The notes under the pieces are model-generated. The model worked only from the letters and a program-made list of their open reading frames with translations, was not told where the DNA came from and ran no database searches. A DNA stretch of 64,000 nt from Hamadaea tsunoensis DSM 44101 (GTDB lineage: Bacteria > Actinomycetota > Actinomycetes > Mycobacteriales > Micromonosporaceae): the NCBI RefSeq assembly GCF_000428945.1, contig NZ_AUAX01000004.1:310001-374000 (forward strand), read 5' to 3'. Shown in pieces: positions 114-10,566 of this stretch. The position numbers and the translations under genes are program-made. The number at the start of each line of letters is the position of its first letter. The first letter of the stretch is position 1.

Positions 114-1545
114 GCAGCGGATTCTCCATCGGCACGTAGACGTCACCTGACCGCACTCCTGGCGGCTCGCGCAAGCGCTCCCCGGCGGCGGCCAGCCGCA
201 TCCGGACCAGGGCCTTGTGCGGGACCGTCGGCGCGGTGAAGAACGCGTGATCGGCCTTGGCCGCGACCGGCGCGTACGCGGCCAGCCCTTCGTAGGTCTC
301 GTCGACGATGCCGCGTACCGGCGCCCAGGCGTCGGGTCCGAGGCCGAGGGCGTGCACCACGTCGCCGAGGTGCGCCTGGAACGCGGTGTACGCGACCTTC
401 GCCAGCAGCACGTTCTCGTCCTCGGTGCCGACGACCGAGCCGGGCCACAGGTCGAGGCGTACGCCCGCGTCGGCGAGCCGCCCGGCGTGCAGCCGCAGCC
501 CGGCGAGGTCGCGCAGGATCAGCCGGTGCGGAACTCCGCCGAGGAAGGTCACGATGCAGTTCTGCAGGTGCGCTTCGAGTCCCACTCCGAACCGCGTGAC
601 CATCCCGAGCACCGGCGGCAGCACCAGACGCGCGTACGCGGCCAGGAACTCGTGCGGCGTGCGGCCCGAGCGGCGCCGCAGCAGCTCCGCGACGGTCAGT
701 CCGGTGATGGGGCAGGTCTGCGCGAGAGCGATCGCCGGCACCGCCTGCTCGCCGGGGGCCATCGCGGGCATCGGCTCGCGCAGGATCGCCGACAGGTCCC
801 GGCCGTTGCCCAGGTTCGACGCGGCCCCGGCCGGCTCGCCCAGCAGGCGTACCCGGTCGCCGCCGCACTCCGCCAGCAGCCGGGGCAGCTGCGCGGACAG
901 CATCGGGCCGTTGCGCGTACTGGCGATGGAGATGGTCCGCCGGGTCGAGGTGATCTGCACGTCCAGCGACAGCTTCAGGTAGGCGTCGAGCTCCGGCACC
1001 CACAGCGTCCGCACCGCCGCGGTCACCTTCGCCGGCATCTCCCGCTCCAGCACGGGCAAGCCGTAGCGGTCGCGTACCACCGCCAGCTGCCAGGCGTGCA
1101 CCGGCCGGGCCACCAGCCCGCGCGGGGCGCTCACCCCGAACCGCTCGCCCAGATCGTCGCCGACGGAACCTTCTTCGGGTACGCCGACGAAGCCGACCGT
1201 CGTCCCATCGCTCTCCAGGTCGTGCGCCTCGGCGTCGGCGATCGTCCAGCCGAGCCGTGTCCGGCCGCACGGATGCAGGTTGTGGCCCTCCGTGGCCAGC
1301 TGCTCCAGGCGTACGACGGAATCGTGGGCGAGAACGAGGACGTCCGCGGCGCCCGACCCGCGGGCCTCGGCATCGGCCACGGCCCGGCGGCGGTACGCGA
1401 GCGCCAGCTTCTCCTCGGCGTCGGCGATCTCGGCGAGGAAGCCGGGGGAGGCCTCGACCTCGGCCCGGGCGAGACCCTCGCGGCGCAGTGCCGCGGCGAG
1501 CTTGTCCTGGACGGTCTGGTGGGCTCGCAGCCGGTCGTCGTTCAT
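106..1545 (-). CDS. IucA/IucC family NIS siderophore synthetase (downstream copy)
   Basis: A 479-residue ATP-dependent ligase of the NRPS-independent siderophore family, which joins a carboxylate such as citrate to an amine or alcohol through an acyl-adenylate. Family landmarks are visible: HP at residues 91-92 followed by GRTRLG, the segment KLSLDVQITSTRR at about 191-203, and EAHLQN at 324-329 in the nucleotide/metal-binding half. The ATG at 1545 shares its A with the TGA of the upstream synthetase (TGATG), which fixes the start; the reading frame stays open further upstream but only as a meaningless extension inside the neighbour. The product siderophore cannot be deduced from this gene alone. 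Length is shorter than the usual 570-600 residues, so a reduced N-terminal region is likely. Confidence 0.9.
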   Translation of the reverse strand: MNDDRLRAHQTVQDKLAAALRREGLARAEVEASPGFLAEIADAEEKLALAYRRRAVADAEARGSGAADVLVLAHDSVVRLEQLATEGHNLHPCGRTRLGWTIADAEAHDLESDGTTVGFVGVPEEGSVGDDLGERFGVSAPRGLVARPVHAWQLAVVRDRYGLPVLEREMPAKVTAAVRTLWVPELDAYLKLSLDVQITSTRRTISIASTRNGPMLSAQLPRLLAECGGDRVRLLGEPAGAASNLGNGRDLSAILREPMPAMAPGEQAVPAIALAQTCPITGLTVAELLRRRSGRTPHEFLAAYARLVLPPVLGMVTRFGVGLEAHLQNCIVTFLGGVPHRLILRDLAGLRLHAGRLADAGVRLDLWPGSVVGTEDENVLLAKVAYTAFQAHLGDVVHALGLGPDAWAPVRGIVDETYEGLAAYAPVAAKADHAFFTAPTVPHKALVRMRLAAAGERLREPPGVRSGDVYVPMENPLHA

Positions 1546-3149
1546 CACGCTCCCGCGAGTGGGTTGGGTACGGCGGTCCAGATGTCGTCGACGCTGCGCT
1601 CGGCCAGCCGCATCGCGGTGGTGGCCTTGAGCGGCAGCGGCCTGCCGAGCAGCGCCCGCTTGTCGGACTCGGCGACGTGTTCGAGGTGCTCGGCCACGAG
1701 CCGCCACAGCGCGGCCGGATCCGCGCCGTGCAGCGTCTCCAGCAGGTACGCCAGCCGGGCCAGGACGACCGCGAACAGCGACGCGAACGGCTTGGCCCGC
1801 AGCTCGTCCTCGTCGTCGGTGAGCAGGTCGCCCTGGATGACGGGCAGGCCGAGCCCGGCGGCGCGCAGCCTTCCCGGATGCAGCCGCACCCCGCCCACGT
1901 CGCGGTAGCCCGCCTCGGCCGGCCGCCCGTACGCGAGCCGGACGAGCAGGTTCTGGCCGTGCGCCTCCAGCCCGATGCCCCGGCCGAGCAGCGCCAGCAC
2001 GGGCGGCACCAGGACGTCGACGAGATCCCGCCAGAACGCCACCGGATGCCCGCCGTAGCCGGCCGACAGGATCTCGGCCAGCAGACCGGGTTCGGTGAGC
2101 GCGGCTACCGGTGCCCACACCTCGCCGGGACCGGGCAGCGGCGCGCGGCGCAACGCGACGGCCAGCATGGGATGCGGCGTGTTGTCGACGAGGACCGCCC
2201 CGGCGGCCACCTCCGGCAGCGCGCGCAGCGCGAGCCCGCCGGCGGCCAGGGCCAGCAGCTCGGTCACGCGCGGCCCGTTGTGCACGGCGGCGGGGGAGAC
2301 CTGGCGTACGGCGCTGGTCATCTGCACCGCCAGCGCCGTCTTGTAGTGCCGCGACGGATCGCCCACGCTCGCCATCGTGCGCAGCGACATCAGCGGCCGC
2401 GTCGTGACGAAGTCCTTCGTCGGGCGTACGCCGGCCGCGCGCAGCTGCTCGGCCAGGTGCTCGGCCTGCCACGGGTGCAGGGGCAGCCGCGGCGGCAGGC
2501 CCGCCCCGGTCGTCAGCCACCGGCCTCGGGGCACCTCCCAGATCGGCAGGTCGACGGTGGGCGCGTACTCCGGGGCGTACGCGAGGACGTCCAGAGTGGA
2601 CATCCCGACCCGGGCCCGGCAGCCGGGATGCAGCGGATGCCCGTCCACCACCGACTGCTCCAGGTACGCCAGCGCCTGCGGATCGCCCTGCAGCGCGCTC
2701 AACGGTCGCGGAGCGGGCGCGGCTGCCCGGGCCAGGGCCAGGTTGGCGACGCTGTTGGCCACCTCGGTACGCAGCCGGGCGGCGTACTCGCCGGGCAGCC
2801 GCAGCGCGTCGAGCAGTTCGGCCGGGTCGGCGTACGCGGTGCTCGGCCCGTCCGGCGTGGACTGGACGTGCACCCGCAGCTCCCGCCGGTCGGCGAACGG
2901 CTCGGTGGCGGGCCCGATCGCGCGGCGGCCGTCCGTCAGCTCGGTCAGCACGTCGTTGCCGATGCGGCGGTGGTCGCGTACGCCGGGGACGGGTTCGCGG
3001 CGCAGGGCCGTCCAGAGCCGGTTCATGATCGCGGCGCGGGCGCCGGGCAATGCTTCGTCGAAGGCGTCGACCAGTTCGGGCCGGTGCGTGGTGAGCACGG
3101 CGCGGGTCGCGGTGGCGTCAGGTGCGTCGGCGAGGTGCACGATCACCAT
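1545..3149 (-). CDS. IucA/IucC family NIS siderophore synthetase (first gene of operon)
   Basis: A 534-residue NIS synthetase, paralogous to the gene that follows it. Conserved elements are HPGCRAR at 174-180, the substrate-loop segment KTALAVQMTSAVR at 270-282 and EAHGQN at 395-400. Two synthetases in tandem suggest two successive condensations onto one carboxylate scaffold. The chosen start is ATG-GTG-ATC with AAGGG about 12 nt upstream; an out-of-frame ATG lies 7 nt earlier. The gene heads a minus-strand operon with the second synthetase and the PLP decarboxylase. The 200-bp region in front of it holds two direct repeats that look like an operator, but I could not fit a convincing iron box there. 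Confidence 0.9.
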   Translation of the reverse strand: MVIVHLADAPDATATRAVLTTHRPELVDAFDEALPGARAAIMNRLWTALRREPVPGVRDHRRIGNDVLTELTDGRRAIGPATEPFADRRELRVHVQSTPDGPSTAYADPAELLDALRLPGEYAARLRTEVANSVANLALARAAAPAPRPLSALQGDPQALAYLEQSVVDGHPLHPGCRARVGMSTLDVLAYAPEYAPTVDLPIWEVPRGRWLTTGAGLPPRLPLHPWQAEHLAEQLRAAGVRPTKDFVTTRPLMSLRTMASVGDPSRHYKTALAVQMTSAVRQVSPAAVHNGPRVTELLALAAGGLALRALPEVAAGAVLVDNTPHPMLAVALRRAPLPGPGEVWAPVAALTEPGLLAEILSAGYGGHPVAFWRDLVDVLVPPVLALLGRGIGLEAHGQNLLVRLAYGRPAEAGYRDVGGVRLHPGRLRAAGLGLPVIQGDLLTDDEDELRAKPFASLFAVVLARLAYLLETLHGADPAALWRLVAEHLEHVAESDKRALLGRPLPLKATTAMRLAERSVDDIWTAVPNPLAGA

Positions 3150-3348: not shown

Positions 3349-4113
3349 TCAGCCGAACTGGTCGTAGCCCAGCTTGGCGACGAGCGACAGGACGACCACC
3401 AGCAGCACGATCCGGATGAACTTCGCGCCGCGCTTGAGGGCGACCCGCGCGCCGAGCTGCGCCCCGACGATGTTGCACGCCGCGAGCAGTACGCCCAGCG
3501 TCCAGTCGACGTGCCCGAAGACGCCGAACACGATGAGGGCGCCGAGGTTGGTGCCGACGTTGATCATCTTGGCCATGGCCGAGCCGTGCACGAAGTCGGC
3601 GCCGATGACGCCGGTGAACGCGAGCACGAGGAACGTCCCGGTGCCGGGTCCGATCGCGCCGTCGTAGAACGCGATGACCCCGCCGGCGAGCAGGATCATG
3701 GCGGCGACGCGTACGCGGGTCCGCTTCGCGGGGTCGGGGGCCAGCCCGAGCTGCGGGCGGAAGGTGACGAAGACCGCCACGCCGACGAGTACGGCCAGGA
3801 TCACCGGCCGGTACGCCCCGGCGGGCACCGAGCCGGCGAACAGCGCGCCGAGTCCGGCGGTGACGACGGCCAGTGCCGCGGCCGGCCGGGCGACCTTCCA
3901 GTCGATCCCGGTACGCCGCGCGTACGTGACGGCGGCCGAGGCGGTCCCGGCGATGGCGGTGAGCTTGTTGGTGCCGAGGATCGTCGGCAGGGGCAGCCCG
4001 GAGGCGAGCAGCATGGCGGGCAGGATGACGAGTCCGCCACCGCCCACGATGGCGTCGACGGCGCCGCCGGTGGTCGCGGCGGTCATGAGGAGGGCGAGCC
4101 CGGGGAGGTCCAC
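3349..4113 (-). CDS. TSUP (TauE/SafE) family anion exporter
   Basis: A 254-residue polytopic membrane protein with about seven or eight hydrophobic segments. The N-terminal GGAVDAIVGGGGLVILP and the later GxGxG-type stretch IGPGTGTFLVLAF are the paired signature loops of the TauE/SafE family, whose members move sulfite, sulfonates or other small organic anions. A conserved LGTNKL motif sits between the first helices. Start is GTG at 4113 with GGGAG about 11 nt upstream. It is transcribed toward the siderophore operon but is separated from it by 199 bp, so it is probably an independent unit. The substrate cannot be read from the sequence. Confidence 0.88.
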   Translation of the reverse strand: MDLPGLALLMTAATTGGAVDAIVGGGGLVILPAMLLASGLPLPTILGTNKLTAIAGTASAAVTYARRTGIDWKVARPAAALAVVTAGLGALFAGSVPAGAYRPVILAVLVGVAVFVTFRPQLGLAPDPAKRTRVRVAAMILLAGGVIAFYDGAIGPGTGTFLVLAFTGVIGADFVHGSAMAKMINVGTNLGALIVFGVFGHVDWTLGVLLAACNIVGAQLGARVALKRGAKFIRIVLLVVVLSLVAKLGYDQFG

Positions 4114-4205
4114 GGGCGGGGATTCTCCCTGCGGTACGCCGGTCCCGGAGGTGCTGTCCGTCCGGCTGTGATCACGTTCACGGCCGGCGGGCTATCGTGC
4201 CGTCC

Positions 4206-4958
4206 ATGGGGGAACCGCGGCCGGATCAGGCCTGGCTCGTACGCGTACTCGCGGCGCTGGTCGTCGTGCCGATCGGCCTGTCGCTGTGGCTGACGGATTG
4301 GTCGTCTTTGTGGCTGGGCACCTCGACGTGGCTAGGCACCTCGACCCTGAGGTTTCCGTGGTTTTCGGTGGCTGTGCTGACGGCCGTGGCCCTGCAGTTG
4401 CTCGGCCGGCGGTGGCCGCGGGCTCAGGCGAGCCTGGTCCTCGGGCCGGGGGAGTTGCGGGTGGGCGTCGCCTTGCCGACGGCGGTCCAGCCGGTGGCCT
4501 GGTGGGTCGTGGTCGCGACGGCGCTGTCGACGCCGAACTTCTTCACGGCGGTGTGGCTGGCGGCCGGGGTGTTCTTGGGGCTGATGGCGGTCCGGCTGGT
4601 GATGGTCCCGACCGCGCTGGTGATCTCCATGCGGGGTCTGGGCTATCGCCGCCTACTGGGATCGGCGCGGCTGATCCCGTGGGAGCAGATCGAGCGGGCG
4701 CAGGCGATGGGCCCGCCTCGTACGTCGCGGGCGTTTCTCTCGATGCGCTACGTGGAACTGCGACTGACGCCGGACGCCTGGCGTCGGAAGACGCCGGTCC
4801 TGCCGGAGGGTGTGGATGCCTGGTTCCTCGCCGATGTGATCGAGTACTACCGGCTGCGTCCGGAGGCGCGGACGGAGATCGGCACCCTGGACGGTTATCG
4901 CCGGATGACCGCCGCGCTCGCCGAGTGGTACCAGGAACAACCATCCGTCCGGCGGTGA
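4206..4958 (+). CDS. array paralogue 1: four-helix membrane protein with PH-like tail
   Basis: First of six tandem paralogues of unknown function. The 250-residue protein opens with the family signature GEPRPDQAWLVRVL, has hydrophobic segments at about 11-29, 51-67, 95-107 and 112-137, then a beta-rich soluble part (ALVISMRGLGYRR..LIPWEQIERA) and the shared C-terminal helix EYYRLRPEARTEIGTLDGYR. The 'GL..PWE.I' pattern recalls bacterial PH-like domains that follow membrane helices; this is my inference. An in-frame 18-bp tandem repeat doubles the motif WLGTST. ATG 4206 is preferred over the GTG at 4197 because it places the family signature at the N-terminus. Confidence 0.75.
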   Translation: MGEPRPDQAWLVRVLAALVVVPIGLSLWLTDWSSLWLGTSTWLGTSTLRFPWFSVAVLTAVALQLLGRRWPRAQASLVLGPGELRVGVALPTAVQPVAWWVVVATALSTPNFFTAVWLAAGVFLGLMAVRLVMVPTALVISMRGLGYRRLLGSARLIPWEQIERAQAMGPPRTSRAFLSMRYVELRLTPDAWRRKTPVLPEGVDAWFLADVIEYYRLRPEARTEIGTLDGYRRMTAALAEWYQEQPSVRR

Positions 4959-4992
4959 TCGTGAGCGCCGGGGTTCGGCTACCGTCCCCGCC

Positions 4993-5793
4993 GTGGGAGT
5001 TCCGCGCCGTGACCGAGCCTGGCTGGTACGCGTCCTCGGCCTGTCCATCATCGTCTTCCCGCCCGCGTTGATGCTGTGGCTGGTGGACTGGTCGGACCTC
5101 TGGACGCCGAGGCCGGTCCGGCATCTCCTCCTGTGGTGTCTGGTTCCGATAGCGGTCGCCGTGGTTCTGCCGATCGCTTCGGACTGGTGGGCGCGGCTGC
5201 CGCCGTCCCTGGTGGTACGCGCCGACCGGGGTGAGTTCCGGGTGCCGGACCGGCCCGTCACGACGGTCGGCCTTCTGCTGCTCGGCTTCGGCCTCGCGTT
5301 GTGTGTCGTCTCCACCGGGTATCCCTCGGGGGGACCGCTGGTCGTGAGTGCGTTGCCGATGGTCGTGGTGGTGTTCGTCGGCGCGTTGATGGCCGGGACC
5401 CCGGACTCGCTGGGTCTGTCGCCGCGGGGCCTGTGGTTGCGCTGGGGGCCGAGGCGCCCCCGCTGGTGGACGTGGGAGGAACTGGCGGACGTGACCGCCG
5501 AGGTGATGCCGCCCCGCCGCTGGTGGCAGCGGCGGGCCGTCACCGTCCGGCTGAGGCTTCCGTCGCAGCGTCGGCGGCTTCCGTGGAACGGGATCGAGGT
5601 GGACCTTCCGTTGAGCGGGGTCCGCGTGGATCCCCGGTTCCTCGCAACGGTCATCGAGTACTACCGGCTGCATCCTGAGGCCAGGGCCGGGATCGGCACT
5701 CTCGACGGCTACGAGCGGCTGTGCGCGGCCCTCGCGGAGTGGCCCGTACCGGCTACCGTGCCGAGCCATGGGGGCGTCGACGGTGCCCGGTGA
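4993..5793 (+). CDS. array paralogue 2: membrane protein of unknown function
   Basis: A 266-residue second copy, starting with GTG: MGVPRRDRAWLVRVLGL. Hydrophobic segments match those of copy 1, followed by a longer basic insert around residues 152-185 (many Trp and Arg), before IEYYRLHPEARAGIGTLDGY. The soluble part carries LGLSPRGLWLRWG..WWTWEEL, the same 'G-L-x-W-x-x-E' pattern seen in copy 1. It follows copy 1 by 34 nt and its 3' end overlaps the start of copy 3 by 26 nt, so the array is very likely one transcript. No catalytic motif is visible in any copy. Confidence 0.75.
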   Translation: MGVPRRDRAWLVRVLGLSIIVFPPALMLWLVDWSDLWTPRPVRHLLLWCLVPIAVAVVLPIASDWWARLPPSLVVRADRGEFRVPDRPVTTVGLLLLGFGLALCVVSTGYPSGGPLVVSALPMVVVVFVGALMAGTPDSLGLSPRGLWLRWGPRRPRWWTWEELADVTAEVMPPRRWWQRRAVTVRLRLPSQRRRLPWNGIEVDLPLSGVRVDPRFLATVIEYYRLHPEARAGIGTLDGYERLCAALAEWPVPATVPSHGGVDGAR

Positions 5794-6472
5794 TCCGCGG
5801 CCGGACCGAGTGTGGGTGGTTCGTGTCCTGTCCGTGTCCACCGTGGTCGCGGCCGTCGGCGTCGTGGTTCTGACGTTGCTGCCGCCGCGTACGGCGGTGG
5901 ACGCGTGGCGCGGGGCGACGATCGTCGGCATCCTCGTGCTGGCTCTGTTCGTCTTCGTGGCTCAGCGGACGTCGGCATGGACCGTGTCCGCTTTTCGCGT
6001 GCTACCGGATGCGGCGGAGTTCCGGGTGGGGATGAGGCCCGTGGGGGCCGCGTTCCCGCTGATCCTCGTGCTGCTCCTGGGCGCGGGCGTGGCGGGGATG
6101 ACATGGCCGACGGGCGGCTGGCGTCTGCTGTGGCTTCTGTTCCTGGCCGTCCCGGTCTGGCTCGTCGTCGGCTTCGGATCGAGTCCGTCGGTGGGGGCGC
6201 TGACCCCGGCGGGGCTGAAGGTTTCGCCCGGCCTCGGCCGCGTACGGACCTACGGCTGGGATGAGGACCTCACGGCGCCGACGCGCCTGCTGTGCACCGG
6301 CGACGTGTATCCGGACTTCGTCCGCGCGGCCGTCGACTACTACCGCACCTTCCCGGAGTTCCGGGACCGCATCGGCGACCCGGCGGAGCATCGCCGGCTG
6401 TACGCCGAGGTCGTGTCCGCGTACGCGCGGGGCCGGCAGGCGGATGTCGCACATCTCATGGGGGACGACTGA
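5768..6472 (+). CDS. array paralogue 3: membrane protein of unknown function
   Basis: A 234-residue copy beginning MGASTVPGDPRPDRVWVVRV, so the family signature is shifted about six residues inward. Helices are predicted at roughly 20-38, 50-66, 92-112 and 118-136; the PH-like strand region is TPAGLKVSPGLGRVRTYGWD. The C-terminal helix is DYYRTFPEFRDRIGDPAEHR, and the protein ends VAHLMGDD, a tail not present in copies 1 and 2. An alternative GTG start at 5783 would shorten the overlap with copy 2. Its stop codon shares an A with the start of copy 4 (TGATGG). Confidence 0.74.
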   Translation: MGASTVPGDPRPDRVWVVRVLSVSTVVAAVGVVVLTLLPPRTAVDAWRGATIVGILVLALFVFVAQRTSAWTVSAFRVLPDAAEFRVGMRPVGAAFPLILVLLLGAGVAGMTWPTGGWRLLWLLFLAVPVWLVVGFGSSPSVGALTPAGLKVSPGLGRVRTYGWDEDLTAPTRLLCTGDVYPDFVRAAVDYYRTFPEFRDRIGDPAEHRRLYAEVVSAYARGRQADVAHLMGDD

Positions 6473-7122
6473 TGGCACCTGGTGATCCTGTTCCGGACCG
6501 CACCTGGCAGGTACGCCTTCTGGCGCTGCTGGCGTTCGTGCCGGCCGTAGTCGCGATGACGCTGGTCGTCGCGGATGTCAAGGTGGTGTCCGTCGAGACG
6601 TGGCGGCTGCTGGTGCCGTTGCCGCTGGTGGCGATGGTGGTCCAGTTCCTGGCGGTTCTCGTCCTGACGAGCCGTGGGCGTGGACCGGCGGCTTTCGCGG
6701 TGTCGGCGGCGGGTGAGTTCCGGCTGCGGGTCCGGCCGGTCGTCGCCTGCGCGTTCCTGCCCTGGGCGGTCGGGAACTGCCTGGAGCTGTTCCATCCGGA
6801 CTGGGGTGACGCCCTGACCCGCGGGGCGGTCGTGTCGCTCGTGGGCGTGTGTACGGTGTCGGCTCTGCTGGCGTTGGTGGCTCCGGTCGCGGTGGCGCTG
6901 TCGCCCGAGGGTGTACGGCTGTTCCGGGGGCGGGTGATGCCGTGGGACGCGCCGGTCGTGCCGCCGATGGGCCTGCTGCGCTGGGCAGACGTGAACCGCA
7001 TGTTCCTGGCGGATGCGATCTTGTATTACCGGGCGCATCCGGAGTTCCGTTCCGAGATCGGCACCCCCGCCGAGCACCGCCGCCTCTACGCCGTCCTCGT
7101 ATCTGCCCGGGTGTCCGCATGA
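6472..7122 (+). CDS. array paralogue 4: membrane protein of unknown function
   Basis: A 216-residue copy starting MAPGDPVPDRTWQVRL. It has the same four hydrophobic segments, a PH-like stretch SPEGVRLFRGRVMPWDAPVV and the C-terminal signature YYRAHPEFRSEIGTPAEHR. The start is fixed by the TGATG overlap with copy 3. Copy 5 repeats its first 16 residues without a change and almost all of its last 40, so copies 4 and 5 are the most recent duplicates in the array. Its stop overlaps the ATG of the short scar reading frame that follows. Confidence 0.75.
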   Translation: MAPGDPVPDRTWQVRLLALLAFVPAVVAMTLVVADVKVVSVETWRLLVPLPLVAMVVQFLAVLVLTSRGRGPAAFAVSAAGEFRLRVRPVVACAFLPWAVGNCLELFHPDWGDALTRGAVVSLVGVCTVSALLALVAPVAVALSPEGVRLFRGRVMPWDAPVVPPMGLLRWADVNRMFLADAILYYRAHPEFRSEIGTPAEHRRLYAVLVSARVSA

Positions 7123-7196
7123 CGGGGCCGGCCGATTACCCGACATCCGACCGCACTCGGCAGACGAGCGTCGCGCATCTCATGGAGAACGACTGA
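7119..7196 (+). pseudogene. 25-codon remnant of a paralogue-3 tail between copies 4 and 5
   Basis: The only sequence between copies 4 and 5 is an open frame of 25 codons, ending TSVAHLMEND. Copy 3 ends DVAHLMGDD, and both are followed at once by the identical overlap TGATGGCACCTGGTGATCC. The simplest reading is that the duplicated unit ran from the last codons of copy 3 through copy 4, leaving this stub in front of copy 5. The frame is intact, with an ATGA overlap at its start and a TGATG overlap at its end, so it may still be translated and couple translation of copies 4 and 5. I do not assign it a function. Confidence 0.55.
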
Positions 7197-7867
7197 TGGC
7201 ACCTGGTGATCCCGTACCCGACCGCACCTGGCAGGTACGCCTGCCGGCCTTGCTGGCGCTCGTTCCGATCGTCGGTGCCGTGTTCCTCGTCGGGGCGGAG
7301 GTCGAGGTGTCCCGGCCCGTCTGGGCTGGTCTGGCCTTCCTGTCGGTGCTGATGATCTTCGTTCAGCTCGCGGCGTTCGTGCAGCTGGCGGGTCGGCGGA
7401 ACGGTCCCGCGGCGTTCATCGCGGTGGAGAAGGCCAGACAGTTCCGGGTCCGGGTCCGGCCGATCGCCGCCTGGATGCTGGTGCCGTTTGGGGTGTACAC
7501 CTGCCTCCAGCTGATGCACCCGGGCTACTGGGATGGTGCGGATCTCGTGGACGTGCTGATGCGGGCGGCCTATGTCGTGTTGGCGGGTGCGGCGGTGCTT
7601 CCAGCGTTGGCGGCGTTGCTGCGCCCGTTCAGAGTGGTGCTGACTCCCGAAGGCGTCCGAACCGGTCTTGCCGCGCGGGTCACGCCGTGGGATGCGGCGG
7701 TCGTCCGTCCGGCGGGGTTGGTGCGCTGGCCGGATGTGCATCCAACGTTCCTGGCGGATGCGATCTTGTACTACCGGACGCATCCGGAGTTCCGTTCCGA
7801 GATCGGCACCCCCGCCGAGCACCGCCGCCTCTACGCCGCGCTCGTCGCCGCCCGCATTCCCGCATGA
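7196..7867 (+). CDS. array paralogue 5: membrane protein of unknown function
   Basis: A 223-residue near-duplicate of copy 4. N-terminus MAPGDPVPDRTWQVRL is identical and the C-terminal helix is YYRTHPEFRSEIGTPAEHR. The middle has diverged much more than the ends, which is unusual for a simple recent duplication and could reflect gene conversion at the ends or selection on the middle. The PH-like stretch TPEGVRTGLAARVTPWDAAV is retained. Start and stop are each shared with the neighbours through 1-4 nt overlaps. Confidence 0.75.
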   Translation: MAPGDPVPDRTWQVRLPALLALVPIVGAVFLVGAEVEVSRPVWAGLAFLSVLMIFVQLAAFVQLAGRRNGPAAFIAVEKARQFRVRVRPIAAWMLVPFGVYTCLQLMHPGYWDGADLVDVLMRAAYVVLAGAAVLPALAALLRPFRVVLTPEGVRTGLAARVTPWDAAVVRPAGLVRWPDVHPTFLADAILYYRTHPEFRSEIGTPAEHRRLYAALVAARIPA

Positions 7868-8613
7868 CGTACCCGGTGGGGGAGCCGCGGCCCGACCGGA
7901 CCGTGCTGGTGCGCGTGTTCGCCGCGTTGACCGCGGTCCCGGTCGTGACCTCGGCGGTGCTGCTGTGGTCGTTCCCCGATCCGCCGCAGGCGCTGTGGCC
8001 GGCCTACTTGTTTGCCTGGCTCGGTCAGGGTGCCCTCATTCTGGCGGCGGTCGTTGCGGCGGAGCCACCGGCCGCGTTCGCCGCCGTCCCGGCGGTCGGC
8101 GAGTTCCGGGCGCCCGTCCGCCCGCTGCTCGCGGCCATGCCCGCCCTGTGGGGAGCGGTCGTGTGCCTGTACGCGCTGCATCCGGGAGAGCGGCTGGCCG
8201 GCCTCGCGCCGGCCTGGCTGGCCCTCGAAGGCGCCTTCGCGCTCACCGCCGCCCGGCTGTTCGCGGCGGCCACCGTCGTGTCGCTGTCCGCGCGCGGTGT
8301 GACGGTCCGTGGCCTTTTCCGCACTTTGGTGTACGCGTGGGATGATCTGCCTGATTTACCCGTGACGGTGGTACGCGGCGGCGCGCGGCGGGAGATGGTG
8401 ATGTTCACCGTTGCGGGCCGGCGGCCGCTGCGGCTGGCGTACGCGGGGGTGGACAGCCGCTTCCTGGCCTATGCGATCGCGTATTACCGGTGGCGGCCGG
8501 AGTTCCGGGCGGCGATCGGCACGCCGGACGAGCATCGCCGCCTGTACGCGGAGCTGATGACGGCGTACGCGGTCAGCGCCGGGGCCCGCCGTTTCGGCGA
8601 CGCTGTTCGCTGA
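7864..8613 (+). CDS. array paralogue 6: membrane protein of unknown function
   Basis: The last, 249-residue copy. It returns to the copy-1 style signature GEPRPDRTVLVRVFAAL and has the longest soluble region: SARGVTVRGLFRTLVYAWDD, then a strand-rich part including GRRPLRLAYAGVD before IAYYRWRPEFRAAIGTPDEHR. The ATG overlaps the stop of copy 5 (ATGA). No hairpin is obvious directly after its TGA, and a small minus-strand reading frame overlaps its last 41 nt. Copies 1 and 6 resemble each other in their N-termini more than the middle copies do, suggesting an old array that expanded from inside. Confidence 0.75.
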   Translation: MTYPVGEPRPDRTVLVRVFAALTAVPVVTSAVLLWSFPDPPQALWPAYLFAWLGQGALILAAVVAAEPPAAFAAVPAVGEFRAPVRPLLAAMPALWGAVVCLYALHPGERLAGLAPAWLALEGAFALTAARLFAAATVVSLSARGVTVRGLFRTLVYAWDDLPDLPVTVVRGGARREMVMFTVAGRRPLRLAYAGVDSRFLAYAIAYYRWRPEFRAAIGTPDEHRRLYAELMTAYAVSAGARRFGDAVR

Positions 8614-8677
8614 AGTACATGCCCGCGGCGCCGACGGCGATGAAGAAGAGCGCGAAGCACACGAAGGCCTTGAACAT
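8573..8677 (-). CDS. small single-span membrane protein (34 aa), hypothetical
   Basis: A short minus-strand frame encodes MFKAFVCFALFFIAVGAAGM followed by YFSEQRRR and an Arg/Gly tail. It is one clean transmembrane segment with a positively charged C-terminus, a typical small membrane protein. Its 3' end overlaps the end of array copy 6 on the other strand by 41 nt. Upstream lies GGAGC about 12 nt from the ATG, a weak ribosome site. The amphipathic logic of the sequence argues for coding, but the length is too small to be certain. Confidence 0.4.
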   Translation of the reverse strand: MFKAFVCFALFFIAVGAAGMYFSEQRRRNGGPRR

Positions 8678-8731
8678 GGCGGCCAGCGTAGCTCCGCGCC
8701 CTGGTGTTGCAGAAGCGGGTGCCGGGCGGGA

Positions 8732-9958
8732 TCAGAAATCCCCGCCGCCGAAGTCACCTCCGCCGAAGTCGTCGTAGCCGCCCCCGCCGAAGTCGCCGCC
8801 GCCGTCGTAGGAGGCGTTGTCGTAGCCGCCGCCGTCGTAGGAGCTGTTGTCGTAGGAGGCGTCGGTGTTGCCGGGGTCGCCCGCGCCGGGGTCGTTCTCG
8901 TAGTAGTTGTTGGTGACGTTCTCCGTCACGTTCTCGGTGTTGTTGTGGTCGGGGCCGTCGAGCATGTCGCCGATGACCATGCCGCCGAGGAAGCCGAGGG
9001 CGGCTCCGCCGGCGCCGGCCGCGATCATGCTGCCCATGCCGGGGCCGCTGCGGCCGTAGCCGTATCCGCCGCCGCCGTACGCGGGCTGCCCGTAGCCCTG
9101 GCCGTAACCGGGCTGCGCGCCGTAGCCGGGCTGGCCGTAGCCCTGGCCGCCGTAGCCGGGCTGCCCGCCGCGCTGGTTGTACGCGACCGGCGGCGGCTGC
9201 ATGAACGCGCCCGCCCCCTGTCCCTGCTGCGGTACGCGGGCCAGCGCGTCGCGTACCCAGGTGGCGACGGTGGCGCTGATGTCGCCGGTGGCCTCGGAGT
9301 GCGCGAGGGTGTAGCGGGCGGGCTGGCTGCCCCAGCCGGCTTCGACGGCGACGTCGAGCGCGTGGGCGTTGGCGGCGTAGCTGATGCTCAGCTGCGGCAG
9401 GTGGGCGCCGGGGGTGCGGCCGTCGGCGGGCGCGTAGAAGGTGATCCGCTGCGCGACCGGTACGCCGAGGCCGGCCTGCTGGCCGGGGCGCAGGTCGGCG
9501 CGGACGAACCGGCAGCCGATGAGGCCGAGGGCGTCCAGGAGGTGGTTGTGCACCGGCAGCGGCTGGACGGCGATCGGGTCGCGGTCGGTCTTGCCGGATC
9601 CGCCGCGCACGTCGACCTGGGTGCGGATGCCGAGCGCGATGCCGGGCAGGGGCTGGCCGTAGATGATGCTGACGGGGGTCTCCCAGGGCAGCTGCGCCGA
9701 CAGCGGGATGCTGTGGTGGGCGCCGGCGGGCAGGACGAACCGGCCGGCCGCCGGGATGCGGGCGACGTCGTACGCGGCGCCGGCCGCTTCGGCGGTGACG
9801 ATCAGGGTGATGCTCTCGATCTCGGTGTCGGAGCCGCCGCCGGCGAGCAGGATCTGGCCCGCGAGGGGTGCGCCCGGGGTGACGGTGGGCTGGGACAGCA
9901 CCGTGTCCACGGTGGGACCGCCGATGCCGAGACTGCCCAGCAGTTTCTTGAAGACCAT
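8732..9958 (-). CDS. Spo0M-family (sporulation-control) protein with Gly/Tyr-rich tail
   Basis: A 408-residue protein with an arrestin-like Spo0M domain over roughly the first 230 residues (MVFKKLLGSLGIGGPTVDTV.. with ESITLIVTAEA). After it comes a Gly-Tyr-Gln region of GYGQPGYG-type repeats, a glycine-rich hydrophobic stretch MIAAGAGGAALGFLGGMVIG that could span or insert into the membrane, and an Asp/Gly/Tyr/Phe tail ending DFGGGDFGGGDF. Spo0M proteins of Bacillus and Streptomyces affect sporulation or morphology. The low-complexity tail is of the type that forms condensates; that is inference. The start at MVFKK (9958) is the family-like one; in-frame ATG 9967 and TTG 9985 lie just upstream. 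Confidence 0.85.
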   Translation of the reverse strand: MVFKKLLGSLGIGGPTVDTVLSQPTVTPGAPLAGQILLAGGGSDTEIESITLIVTAEAAGAAYDVARIPAAGRFVLPAGAHHSIPLSAQLPWETPVSIIYGQPLPGIALGIRTQVDVRGGSGKTDRDPIAVQPLPVHNHLLDALGLIGCRFVRADLRPGQQAGLGVPVAQRITFYAPADGRTPGAHLPQLSISYAANAHALDVAVEAGWGSQPARYTLAHSEATGDISATVATWVRDALARVPQQGQGAGAFMQPPPVAYNQRGGQPGYGGQGYGQPGYGAQPGYGQGYGQPAYGGGGYGYGRSGPGMGSMIAAGAGGAALGFLGGMVIGDMLDGPDHNNTENVTENVTNNYYENDPGAGDPGNTDASYDNSSYDGGGYDNASYDGGGDFGGGGYDDFGGGDFGGGDF

Positions 9959-10035
9959 GGGACCCATGATGGCGCGCGGGGTCAAGATCTACCCCTACGA
10001 AACGTAGTTTTCAGGGAAGTCTCAGGGATGACCCG

Positions 10036-10566
10036 TCAGTAGGGGAACTCCTGGGCGTTGGCGAGGCGGATGCCGCTGAAGCCGAGTGTGCTGTCGATCA
10101 CCGCGTCCCACCAGGGCCACAGCCGGTCGACGAGGCGCAGCTGGATGCCGGCCGCGCGGTGCGCTTCGAGCAGGTCGCCGACCTTCTCCGCCGGGCCGAG
10201 CGGGGTCACCGTCCGCGTCGCGACCCACGCGGCGCCTCCTTCAAGGGGCTCGAAGCGGTCCTGGGGCAGCCGGTAGGCGTACAGGGTGGTGTTCTGCAGC
10301 GCGGGCAGCCACGCGTACTCGATGGTGTGTACGCGGGGGGTGCCGGGGCCGAGCAGGCGCAGGGCGTCCTCGGCGGTGGTGGCGGGGTCGGCCCAGGCCA
10401 TGGCGCGCGGGCACTGGCGGGGGAACCAGTAGCTGGGCGCGTCGTGCGCGTCGACCGCCCACACGTACGCTTCGGCCTGCCGGGCGGTCGCCGCGACGTG
10501 CGGGTGGAAGACGGTGATCGTGGGGTCTTCGGAGAAATGCAGGACTTCGCCGGGTCCGGGGATCAT
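10036..10566 (-). CDS. DUF6886-like conserved hypothetical protein
   Basis: A 176-residue soluble protein beginning MIPGPGEVLHFSEDPTITVF. The sequence 'L-x-H-x-S-x-D/E-P-x-I-x-x-F-x-P' and the later VWAVDAHDAPSYWFPRQCPR resemble a small family of actinobacterial and firmicute proteins of unknown function. No signal peptide or membrane segment. Its ATG overlaps the stop of the upstream methyltransferase by 4 nt (ATGA), so both are made from one minus-strand transcript. I cannot name a reaction. Confidence 0.7.
   Translation of the reverse strand: MIPGPGEVLHFSEDPTITVFHPHVAATARQAEAYVWAVDAHDAPSYWFPRQCPRAMAWADPATTAEDALRLLGPGTPRVHTIEYAWLPALQNTTLYAYRLPQDRFEPLEGGAAWVATRTVTPLGPAEKVGDLLEAHRAAGIQLRLVDRLWPWWDAVIDSTLGFSGIRLANAQEFPY

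Follow-up and report, generated by a model that had tools for sequence, protein, structure and literature searches.

Six related membrane-protein genes lie in a row in the soil actinobacterium Hamadaea tsunoensis DSM 44101, raising the question of how such an array arose, to which proteins it is akin and what its products may do. The array is part of a stretch of 64,000 nucleotides (contig NZ_AUAX01000004.1, positions 310,001 to 374,000), the whole of which is referred to here as the window. Taken together, the anatomy, the duplication history and the relationship to bacterial PH proteins described below are in our view probably correct.

Anatomy of the array

Positions 4206–8613 contain six paralogous genes on the same strand (p1–p6), as the initial annotation had stated; the features of the locus are as follows:

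3349..4113, − strand: TauE/SafE family gene, one flank of the slot
4193..4208, + strand: TATCGT-N7-ATG before p1 (motif scan)
4206–4958, + strand: p1, membrane protein of 250 aa, PH-like region full-length
4980..4995, + strand: TACCGT-N7-GTG before p2 (motif scan)
4993–5793, + strand: p2, GTG start, 266 aa, PH-like region full-length
5754..5770, + strand: TACCGT-N8-ATG before p3 (motif scan), within the 3′ coding end of p2
5768–6472, + strand: p3, 234 aa (229 aa from the alternative GTG at 5783), PH-like region shortened by alignment
6472–7122, + strand: p4, 216 aa, PH-like region shortened by alignment
7119–7196, + strand: ORF of 25 aa, overlapping the p4 stop and the p5 start
7196–7867, + strand: p5, 223 aa, AlphaFold-modelled
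7864–8613, + strand: p6, 249 aa, AlphaFold-modelled
8732..9985, − strand: Spo0M family gene, other flank of the slot

Pairwise comparison agreed with the proposed paralogy; BLASTP within the set of six matched all 15 pairs, with E values from 8e-69 to 7e-4 in a tiny search space, the weakest pair (p1–p3) matching over 15 residues only. Searched genome-wide with an E limit of 10, a profile built from the six recovered all of them and two further places. The C-terminal signature YYRxxPExRxxIG is present in every copy, while the N-terminal signature is shared with exceptions in p1 (Q for R), p2 (GVPRRD) and p6 (V for W), and the "PWD/E" motif holds as W-[D/E] in all six but has the preceding P only in p1, p4 and p5. 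Mean pairwise identity among the six bears out the description of conserved ends and differing middles; the N-terminus reaches 61% and the C-terminal helix 59%, compared to 23% in TM2, 24% in TM3, 21% in TM4 and 17% in PH strands 4–6.

The spacing had been described as 34 nt once and overlapping otherwise. We found the 34-nt gap between p1 and p2 and three overlaps, i.e., p2/p3 (26 nt, or 11 nt if p3 starts at GTG 5783), p3/p4 (1 nt) and p5/p6 (4 nt); p4 and p5, however, are separated by a 73-nt gap, which is spanned by the 25-aa ORF. The suggestion that one transcript makes all six genes is not supported here; a start-site motif, TAYCGT followed by 6–9 nt and a start codon, occurs six times in the 64 kb (raw count), three of these at p1, p2 and p3; a scan of positions 4000–8800 for sigma-70-type sites yielded none. 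The leading slot gene of the sampled Hamadaea genomes is preceded by TACCGT-N7-ATG (G061 and G080) or TACTGT-N7-ATG (G039), and the motif before p1 may be a leaderless promoter.

Duplication history and divergence

A copy-number survey of relatives, as the initial annotation had proposed, showed that the slot between TauE/SafE and Spo0M contains a single family gene in both G061 and G039, a pair in G080 and six here; in three genera other than Hamadaea, TauE lies next to Spo0M and no family gene separates them. The effect of copy number is thus testable by comparison across slots with zero, one, two and six copies, as is that of a partly lost PH-like region. Outside Hamadaea, no family gene was present in the 1.5-kb TauE flanks at any of 23 loci; Spo0M was detected in those flanks at four of the 23 and placed at three. 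A tree was built from 36 rows, in which 30 of the 34 collected homologues joined the six window copies (L014 and L031 were left out for overlong or unclear frames, L026 and L028 for closeness to L021). In this tree, the six window copies form one clade (98/93), as do all ten Hamadaea slot rows (98/97), with p1 and p2 (97/95) and p4 and p5 (99/96) as sisters. Of 150 sampled genomes of this taxonomic family, the present one included, at least 73 carry a member of the wider family, a lower bound because only 18 candidates were scored per genome; a pattern scan of genome contigs gave 205 pattern matches, from which four loci were confirmed. In a separate step, 12 loci overlapping other loci of the present genome were left out.

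The 25-aa ORF that spans the p4–p5 gap appears to be a remnant of a seventh copy. Its head resembles the 5′ end of p5 and p4, and its tail resembles the 3′ end of p3; the score of the tail against p3 was reached by none of 2000 shuffles, and that of the head by 3 (p5), 19 (p4), 155 (p6), 482 (p3), 497 (p2) and 1230 (p1) of 2000. Synteny, tree and relic support tandem duplication in this lineage, from one slot gene to six genes and one relic.

How selection has acted on the copies bears on whether the array is largely neutral, i.e., the outcome of rapid tandem duplication after which selection relaxed and decay set in. On this reading, which we regard as possible but not probable, one or two copies would function, and p3–p5 and the relic would be fading. 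The relic itself speaks for it, as does the PH-like part of p3–p5, which is about 20–35 residues short; in addition, pN/pS was about 0.6–0.84 in the six of 15 paralogue pairs computed, compared to 0.27–0.58 in nine flanking genes set against two genomes. On the other hand, none of the six reading frames is interrupted by a stop codon, the C-terminal helix is kept at the mean identity given above, and pN is well below pS at the ends of p4 and p5. At the 3′ end of this pair, pS is 0.19, as compared to 0.39–0.60 in the other stretches, which is suggestive of gene conversion between the two.

The middle stretches of the computed pairs, where pN is close to pS, fit either relaxed or diversifying selection. 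The latter, in which copies would diverge because they bind variable partners (immunity or resistance to membrane-active peptides, or conflict with phages or rivals), appears unlikely. Even the single-copy orthologues of G061 and G039 differ more (62% identity) than eight flanking genes (80–95%), and bacteriocin export has been linked to bacterial PH membrane proteins (PMC8657885), consistent with such conflict; synonymous sites, however, are near saturation between most copies, and no toxin or bacteriocin gene was recognised beside the array or its relatives. For the array, this covers a Pfam scan of the eight flanking proteins, very short peptides being outside its reach, which returned IucA/IucC-FhuF, TauE, Spo0M, DUF6886, a methyltransferase, a thymidine kinase, an MFS protein and an acyltransferase; for the relatives, it covers seven Pfam-scanned neighbours and others read by eye from simple gene calls, a reading that would miss small peptides. 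The link of Spo0M to the array is one of co-location only.

Predicted fold and kinship

The PH domain is well known from animal cells, and bacterial membrane proteins with PH domains are common; to our knowledge, most of them are without known function. AlphaFold models of two of the six proteins contain the four hydrophobic helices expected from the initial reading. The p6 model (pLDDT 82.8) has four long helices, a hairpin, six strands and C-terminal helices; the p5 model (pLDDT 85.9) has the same four helices and hairpin, but only three strands after helix 4 before its C-terminal helices, so that three PH-like strands are absent. The models show, for p5 and p6, four membrane helices, then a PH-like sheet, then the conserved C-terminal helix. 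K+R counts per sequence are high in the N-terminus, loop 2 and the PH part and low in loops 1 and 3; both protein ends are predicted to lie inside the cell, and the beta-hairpin to fall between helix 2 and helix 3.

Scanned against Pfam and NCBIfam, the six proteins gave nothing above cut-off, and the four-helix PH-like family is thus without a name in these scans; weak matches to ATPase_gene1, Wzy_C, the STM3941 family and phosphoglycerol geranylgeranyltransferase, all far below cut-off, were discarded. The earlier statement that no named family was recognised stands at the level of cut-offs but not of remote kinship, as the wider family is remotely related to Pfam bPH_6 (PF10756). Every window copy misses the bPH_6 cut-off of 22 bits (best p6, with 15.6 bits; p1–p5 were not listed as matches in the Pfam scan), while one member of a family pair on contig C29 of the same genome scored 22.3 bits, neighbours being included in the frame; bPH_6 is matched with E of 1 or lower by 9 of the 36 family members, the best E being 1.2e-5. 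Profile–profile comparison by hhalign gave 91.4% (E 8.9e-7) for the 36-row alignment against 12 of 14 fetched bPH_6 members (L090 and L091 left out), compared to 0.0–0.1% for 20 column-shuffled controls; the six window rows alone gave 44.6% (E 2.3e-4), p1, p2 and p6 14.4%, and p3–p5 10.4%. The match is 39 columns long; it starts where helix 4 ends and stops shortly after strand 3.

In a PDB fold search with p6, whose modelled sheet and C-terminal helix sit beside the membrane helices, the leading matches were a bacterial PH protein and several PH domains from eukaryotes, all of them weak (best Foldseek E 0.55); among the best 50 matches of p5 there was no PH structure, these being mostly helical membrane proteins with E of 1 or worse, and a PDB sequence search up to E 1 found no relative. 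That the PH-like part is a different small beta-sheet on a four-helix bundle would accord with these weak Foldseek scores, the sub-threshold Pfam score and the shortness of the profile match, but is improbable given the profile–profile E value, the chance-level shuffled controls and the order of strands and C-terminal helix in the p6 model. The PH-like stretch posited initially in these membrane paralogues is supported.

Proposed role and comparison with known systems

In the explanation that we favour, a single gene lies between Spo0M and TauE/SafE in Hamadaea, its product being a membrane protein of four helices whose PH-like region faces the cytoplasm, and in this lineage the gene was duplicated in tandem. 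As has been suggested for other membrane PH proteins of bacteria, the PH-like part and the C-terminal helix may link subunits into a ring or scaffold that is anchored in the membrane and would serve envelope homeostasis. After duplication, the membrane and PH parts would have diverged fast, three copies coming to carry a reduced PH part, while the C-terminal helix was kept; the copies may therefore form mixed or specialised assemblies. Taken alone, the oligomeric envelope role is put forward only tentatively; no common partner gene was found among the neighbours at the other family loci read, so that this role rests on analogy. It is more doubtful still, and in our view a long shot, that all six proteins are subunits of a single mixed assembly in the membrane, with full PH-like domains alternating with half ones. 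If true, tandem duplication would have made a homomeric bacterial ring heteromeric within one genus, and the ancestral form with one gene would survive in close relatives, where it could be compared directly.

Literature matches listed for bPH_6, PF10756 or DUF2581 concerned nearly all the rice gene Bph6 or unrelated subjects, and none was found for tandem PH domain-containing proteins in Micromonosporaceae. The array family resembles bPH_6 in the profile–profile match and in the strand motif G[LV]..R.......PW straight after a membrane helix, but differs from it in having four membrane helices (bPH_6 members of the same taxonomic family appear two-helical by eye), a conserved C-terminal HPExRxxIG helix, tandem copies and, in the window, scores below cut-off. 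A likeness to PHb1/PHb2 (DUF1696, PF08000) is seen in 3dcx, a DUF1696 PH protein and the top match in the p6 fold search; PHb proteins form rings, for which a pore or transporter has been hypothesised, and as described (PMC2817789) these rings are of PH domains without membrane helices; the array proteins have no sequence relative in the PDB. YdbS/YdbT and DdE/DdF (PHb2, Firmicutes) are likewise membrane proteins with bacterial PH domains from neighbouring genes; DdE/DdF, which are required for bacteriocin export, lie in a bacteriocin operon (PMC8657885), whereas no such gene was recognised among the eight scanned flanking proteins of the array. The bPH_2 family is absent from those matched by the array proteins and homologues. 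The sigma-W regulon of Bacillus subtilis, as listed in PMC3498285, includes both ydbST and spo0M. YdbS and YdbT have two and six membrane helices, respectively (PMC8657885), compared to four in the array family.

Layout of the array and a candidate relic of a seventh copy

The interval 4206–8613 is occupied by six open frames, all on one strand, encoding paralogous proteins of 216–266 aa (p1–p6).

3349–4113, minus strand, TauE/SafE gene
4206–4958, plus strand, p1
4993–5793, plus strand, p2
5768–6472, plus strand, p3
6472–7122, plus strand, p4
7119–7196, 25-aa ORF spanning the 73-nt gap between p4 and p5
7196–7867, plus strand, p5
7864–8613, plus strand, p6
8732–9985, minus strand, Spo0M gene

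All 15 pairs among p1–p6 matched each other (BLASTP within the set of six, E 8e-69 to 7e-4), with the weakest pair, p1–p3, covering 15 residues only. A six-copy profile run against the organism's whole genome recovered p1–p6 at E 2e-93 to 7e-81, as well as two further family places on another contig, C29 (E 1e-12 and 2e-11); a gene encoding a GGDEF-EAL protein (L060:10422-12719) is located approximately 1 kb from this second pair. The initial annotation described one 34-nt spacer and overlaps otherwise; two points are corrected here, as p2 and p3 overlap by 26 nt (or 11 nt if the GTG at 5783 is the p3 start) and p4 and p5 lie 73 nt apart.

The start of the 25-aa ORF overlaps the p4 stop, and its stop overlaps the p5 start. 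Its tail resembles the 3′ end of p3, with a score reached in 0/2000 shuffles, and showed no match to the 3′ ends of the other five copies (503–1531/2000 shuffles). The head resembles the 5′ end of p5 (3/2000 shuffles) and p4 (19/2000), matches p6 poorly (155/2000), and showed no match to p3, p2, and p1 (482, 497, and 1230 of 2000 shuffles, respectively). We read this ORF as a putative remnant of a seventh copy that has lost its middle.

Predicted fold and kinship with bPH_6

In an AlphaFold model of p6, built from 36 sequences (pLDDT 82.8, pTM 0.78), a short hairpin separates the second of four long helices from the third, and there are also six strands and helices at the C-terminus; the p5 model (pLDDT 85.9, pTM 0.80) shares this layout except that helix 4 is followed by three strands. 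The stretch corresponding to PH strands 4–6 comprises 14 residues in p3, p4, and p5 vs 35 (p6), 42 (p1), and 49 (p2); p5 is the modelled copy among p3–p5, and the shortening in p3 and p4 is read from these residue counts. Over the 36-row alignment (p1–p6 plus 30 homologues), K+R per sequence averaged 1.9 in the N-terminus, 0.2, 3.2, and 0.5 in loops 1, 2, and 3, with 4.0 and 6.3 for the halves of the PH-like region, a distribution that puts both protein ends, by prediction, inside the cell. In PDB fold searches, the top match of the p6 model was the bacterial PH protein 3dcx, and the following rows included eukaryotic PH domains (all E ≥0.55), while no PH structure was found among the best 50 rows for p5.

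The Pfam bacterial PH model bPH_6 (PF10756) matches p6 below its cut-off and 9 of the 36 family members at E ≤1 (best 1.2e-5). In profile–profile comparison with 12 bPH_6 members, the family alignment scored 91.4% (E 8.9e-7, over 39 columns), and 20/20 column-shuffled controls scored 0.0–0.1%; the 30 non-window members scored 92.0%, the six window rows 44.6%, p1+p2+p6 14.4%, and p3–p5 10.4%. These comparisons, with their controls and subsets, argue that the wider family is remotely related to bPH_6; the window copies are divergent members that, on their own, would not be assigned to it.

Slot history, divergence, and start sites

Within the organism's taxonomic family, the six-copy profile matched at least 73 of 150 genomes (that of the organism included) at E ≤1e-3, a lower bound, as 18 candidates were scored per genome. 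A wider profile at 1e-6 matched 18/46 genomes of that taxonomic family and, across the phylum, 6/149 (own included in both); three of the five other phylum matches cover only about positions 75–179 and may represent plain PH proteins. Elsewhere, among the matches listed, copies are single, paired, or three in a row (G135). The slot between TauE and Spo0M contains one family gene in each of two other Hamadaea genomes (G061 and G039), two in a third (G080), and six here. These ten genes form one clade (98/97, 36-row tree), within which p1–p6 form a nested clade (98/93) with the firm pairs p1+p2 (97/95) and p4+p5 (99/96); p3 joins p4+p5 weakly (90/11), and the tree does not fix the order of the array's three lines. 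The second G080 gene clusters with the single-copy orthologues (95/87), and derives from a duplication separate from the window's array.

TauE was found at E ≤1e-60 in 25 of 61 genomes searched. Both Hamadaea loci among the 25 have a family gene, and neither profile found one in the 1.5-kb TauE flanks at the 23 non-Hamadaea loci; a Spo0M match is present in these flanks at 4 of the 23. In three of those four, from three genera (G009, G017, and G042), the Spo0M and TauE matches are 283–623 nt apart; the fourth, L097, yielded no Spo0M match under the different search settings used for this placement. The simplest history suggested by these loci has a family gene entering the TauE–Spo0M gap in the Hamadaea line and later multiplying in the window's lineage; loss from the gap outside Hamadaea is a possible alternative. 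An IucA/IucC-FhuF type siderophore synthetase gene (1545–3149) adjoins TauE here and in G061, G039, and G080, and a DUF6886 gene (10036–10566), which overlaps a methyltransferase gene by 4 nt, is retained next to the slot in both G061 and G039.

Nine flanking genes of the array presented 64–87% identity to their G061 or G039 counterparts, and p1–p6 24–35% (full alignments) or 33–44% (local) to the orthologues of G061, G080 (one of its two slot genes), and G039. The single-copy gene of G061 and that of G039 are 62% identical, and eight flanking genes of these two genomes 80–95%, the flank frames being read stop to stop, with blurred ends. Paralogue pS was 0.43–0.58 and pN 0.26–0.45 (6 of 15 pairs computed); flanking genes presented pS of 0.29–0.47 and pN of 0.09–0.25. 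Because synonymous sites are close to saturation in most paralogue pairs, we do not claim positive selection. Mean identity within the six was 61% in the N-terminus, 59% in the C-terminal helix, and 17–24% in TM2, TM3, TM4, and PH strands 4–6; among the 30 other members, the helix retained 52% and the N-terminus fell to 24%. The constant part of the family is the C-terminal helix.

TAYCGT followed by 7 or 8 nt and a start codon precedes p1, p2, and p3, the p3 motif being located within the end of p2; by raw count, TAYCGT + 6–9 nt + ATG/GTG occurs six times on both strands of the 64-kb window, three of them at p1–p3. The slot's leading gene is preceded by TACCGT + 7 nt + ATG in G061 and G080 and by TACTGT + 7 nt + ATG in G039; no TAYCGT-like element was found upstream of the second G080 slot gene. 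As actinobacterial −10 elements have the form TANNNT and leaderless genes occur in actinobacteria, the motif looks like a candidate leaderless promoter. With such motifs at p1–p3, and 0 sites in a sigma-70-type promoter scan of the array, the proposal of a single transcript for all six genes is not established.

Neighbours and possible function

Neighbours of other family members were mixed (two sets of loci, 8 and 19, read from simple gene calls, with seven neighbour proteins checked by Pfam), and no neighbour gene was common to the loci read. A CoA_binding_2-type gene follows the family member in two genera, at L017, L021, and L026 in one and L064 in the other (L021 and L064 Pfam-confirmed, L017 and L026 judged by eye). 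A 663-aa radical SAM protein in G009 (L063:3786-5774) contains a LAGLIDADG_3-like stretch (22.4 bits vs a cut-off of 22.5), which may be an intein, as a shorter relative at L064 (379 aa) has no such match.

Our best guess is that p1–p6 would form a membrane-anchored PH-like scaffold, possibly heteromeric, for envelope homeostasis; about as likely, the array reflects neutral expansion followed by decay. Xu et al. 2010 (PMC2817789) describe bacterial PH proteins that assemble into ring oligomers, and suggest that membrane PH proteins may serve as transporters or pores; DdE and DdF are reported to be needed for the export of a bacteriocin (PMC8657885). In Bacillus subtilis, PMC3498285 lists both ydbST and spo0M as sigma-W regulated; the window array adjoins a Spo0M gene, an adjacency that is no more than suggestive.
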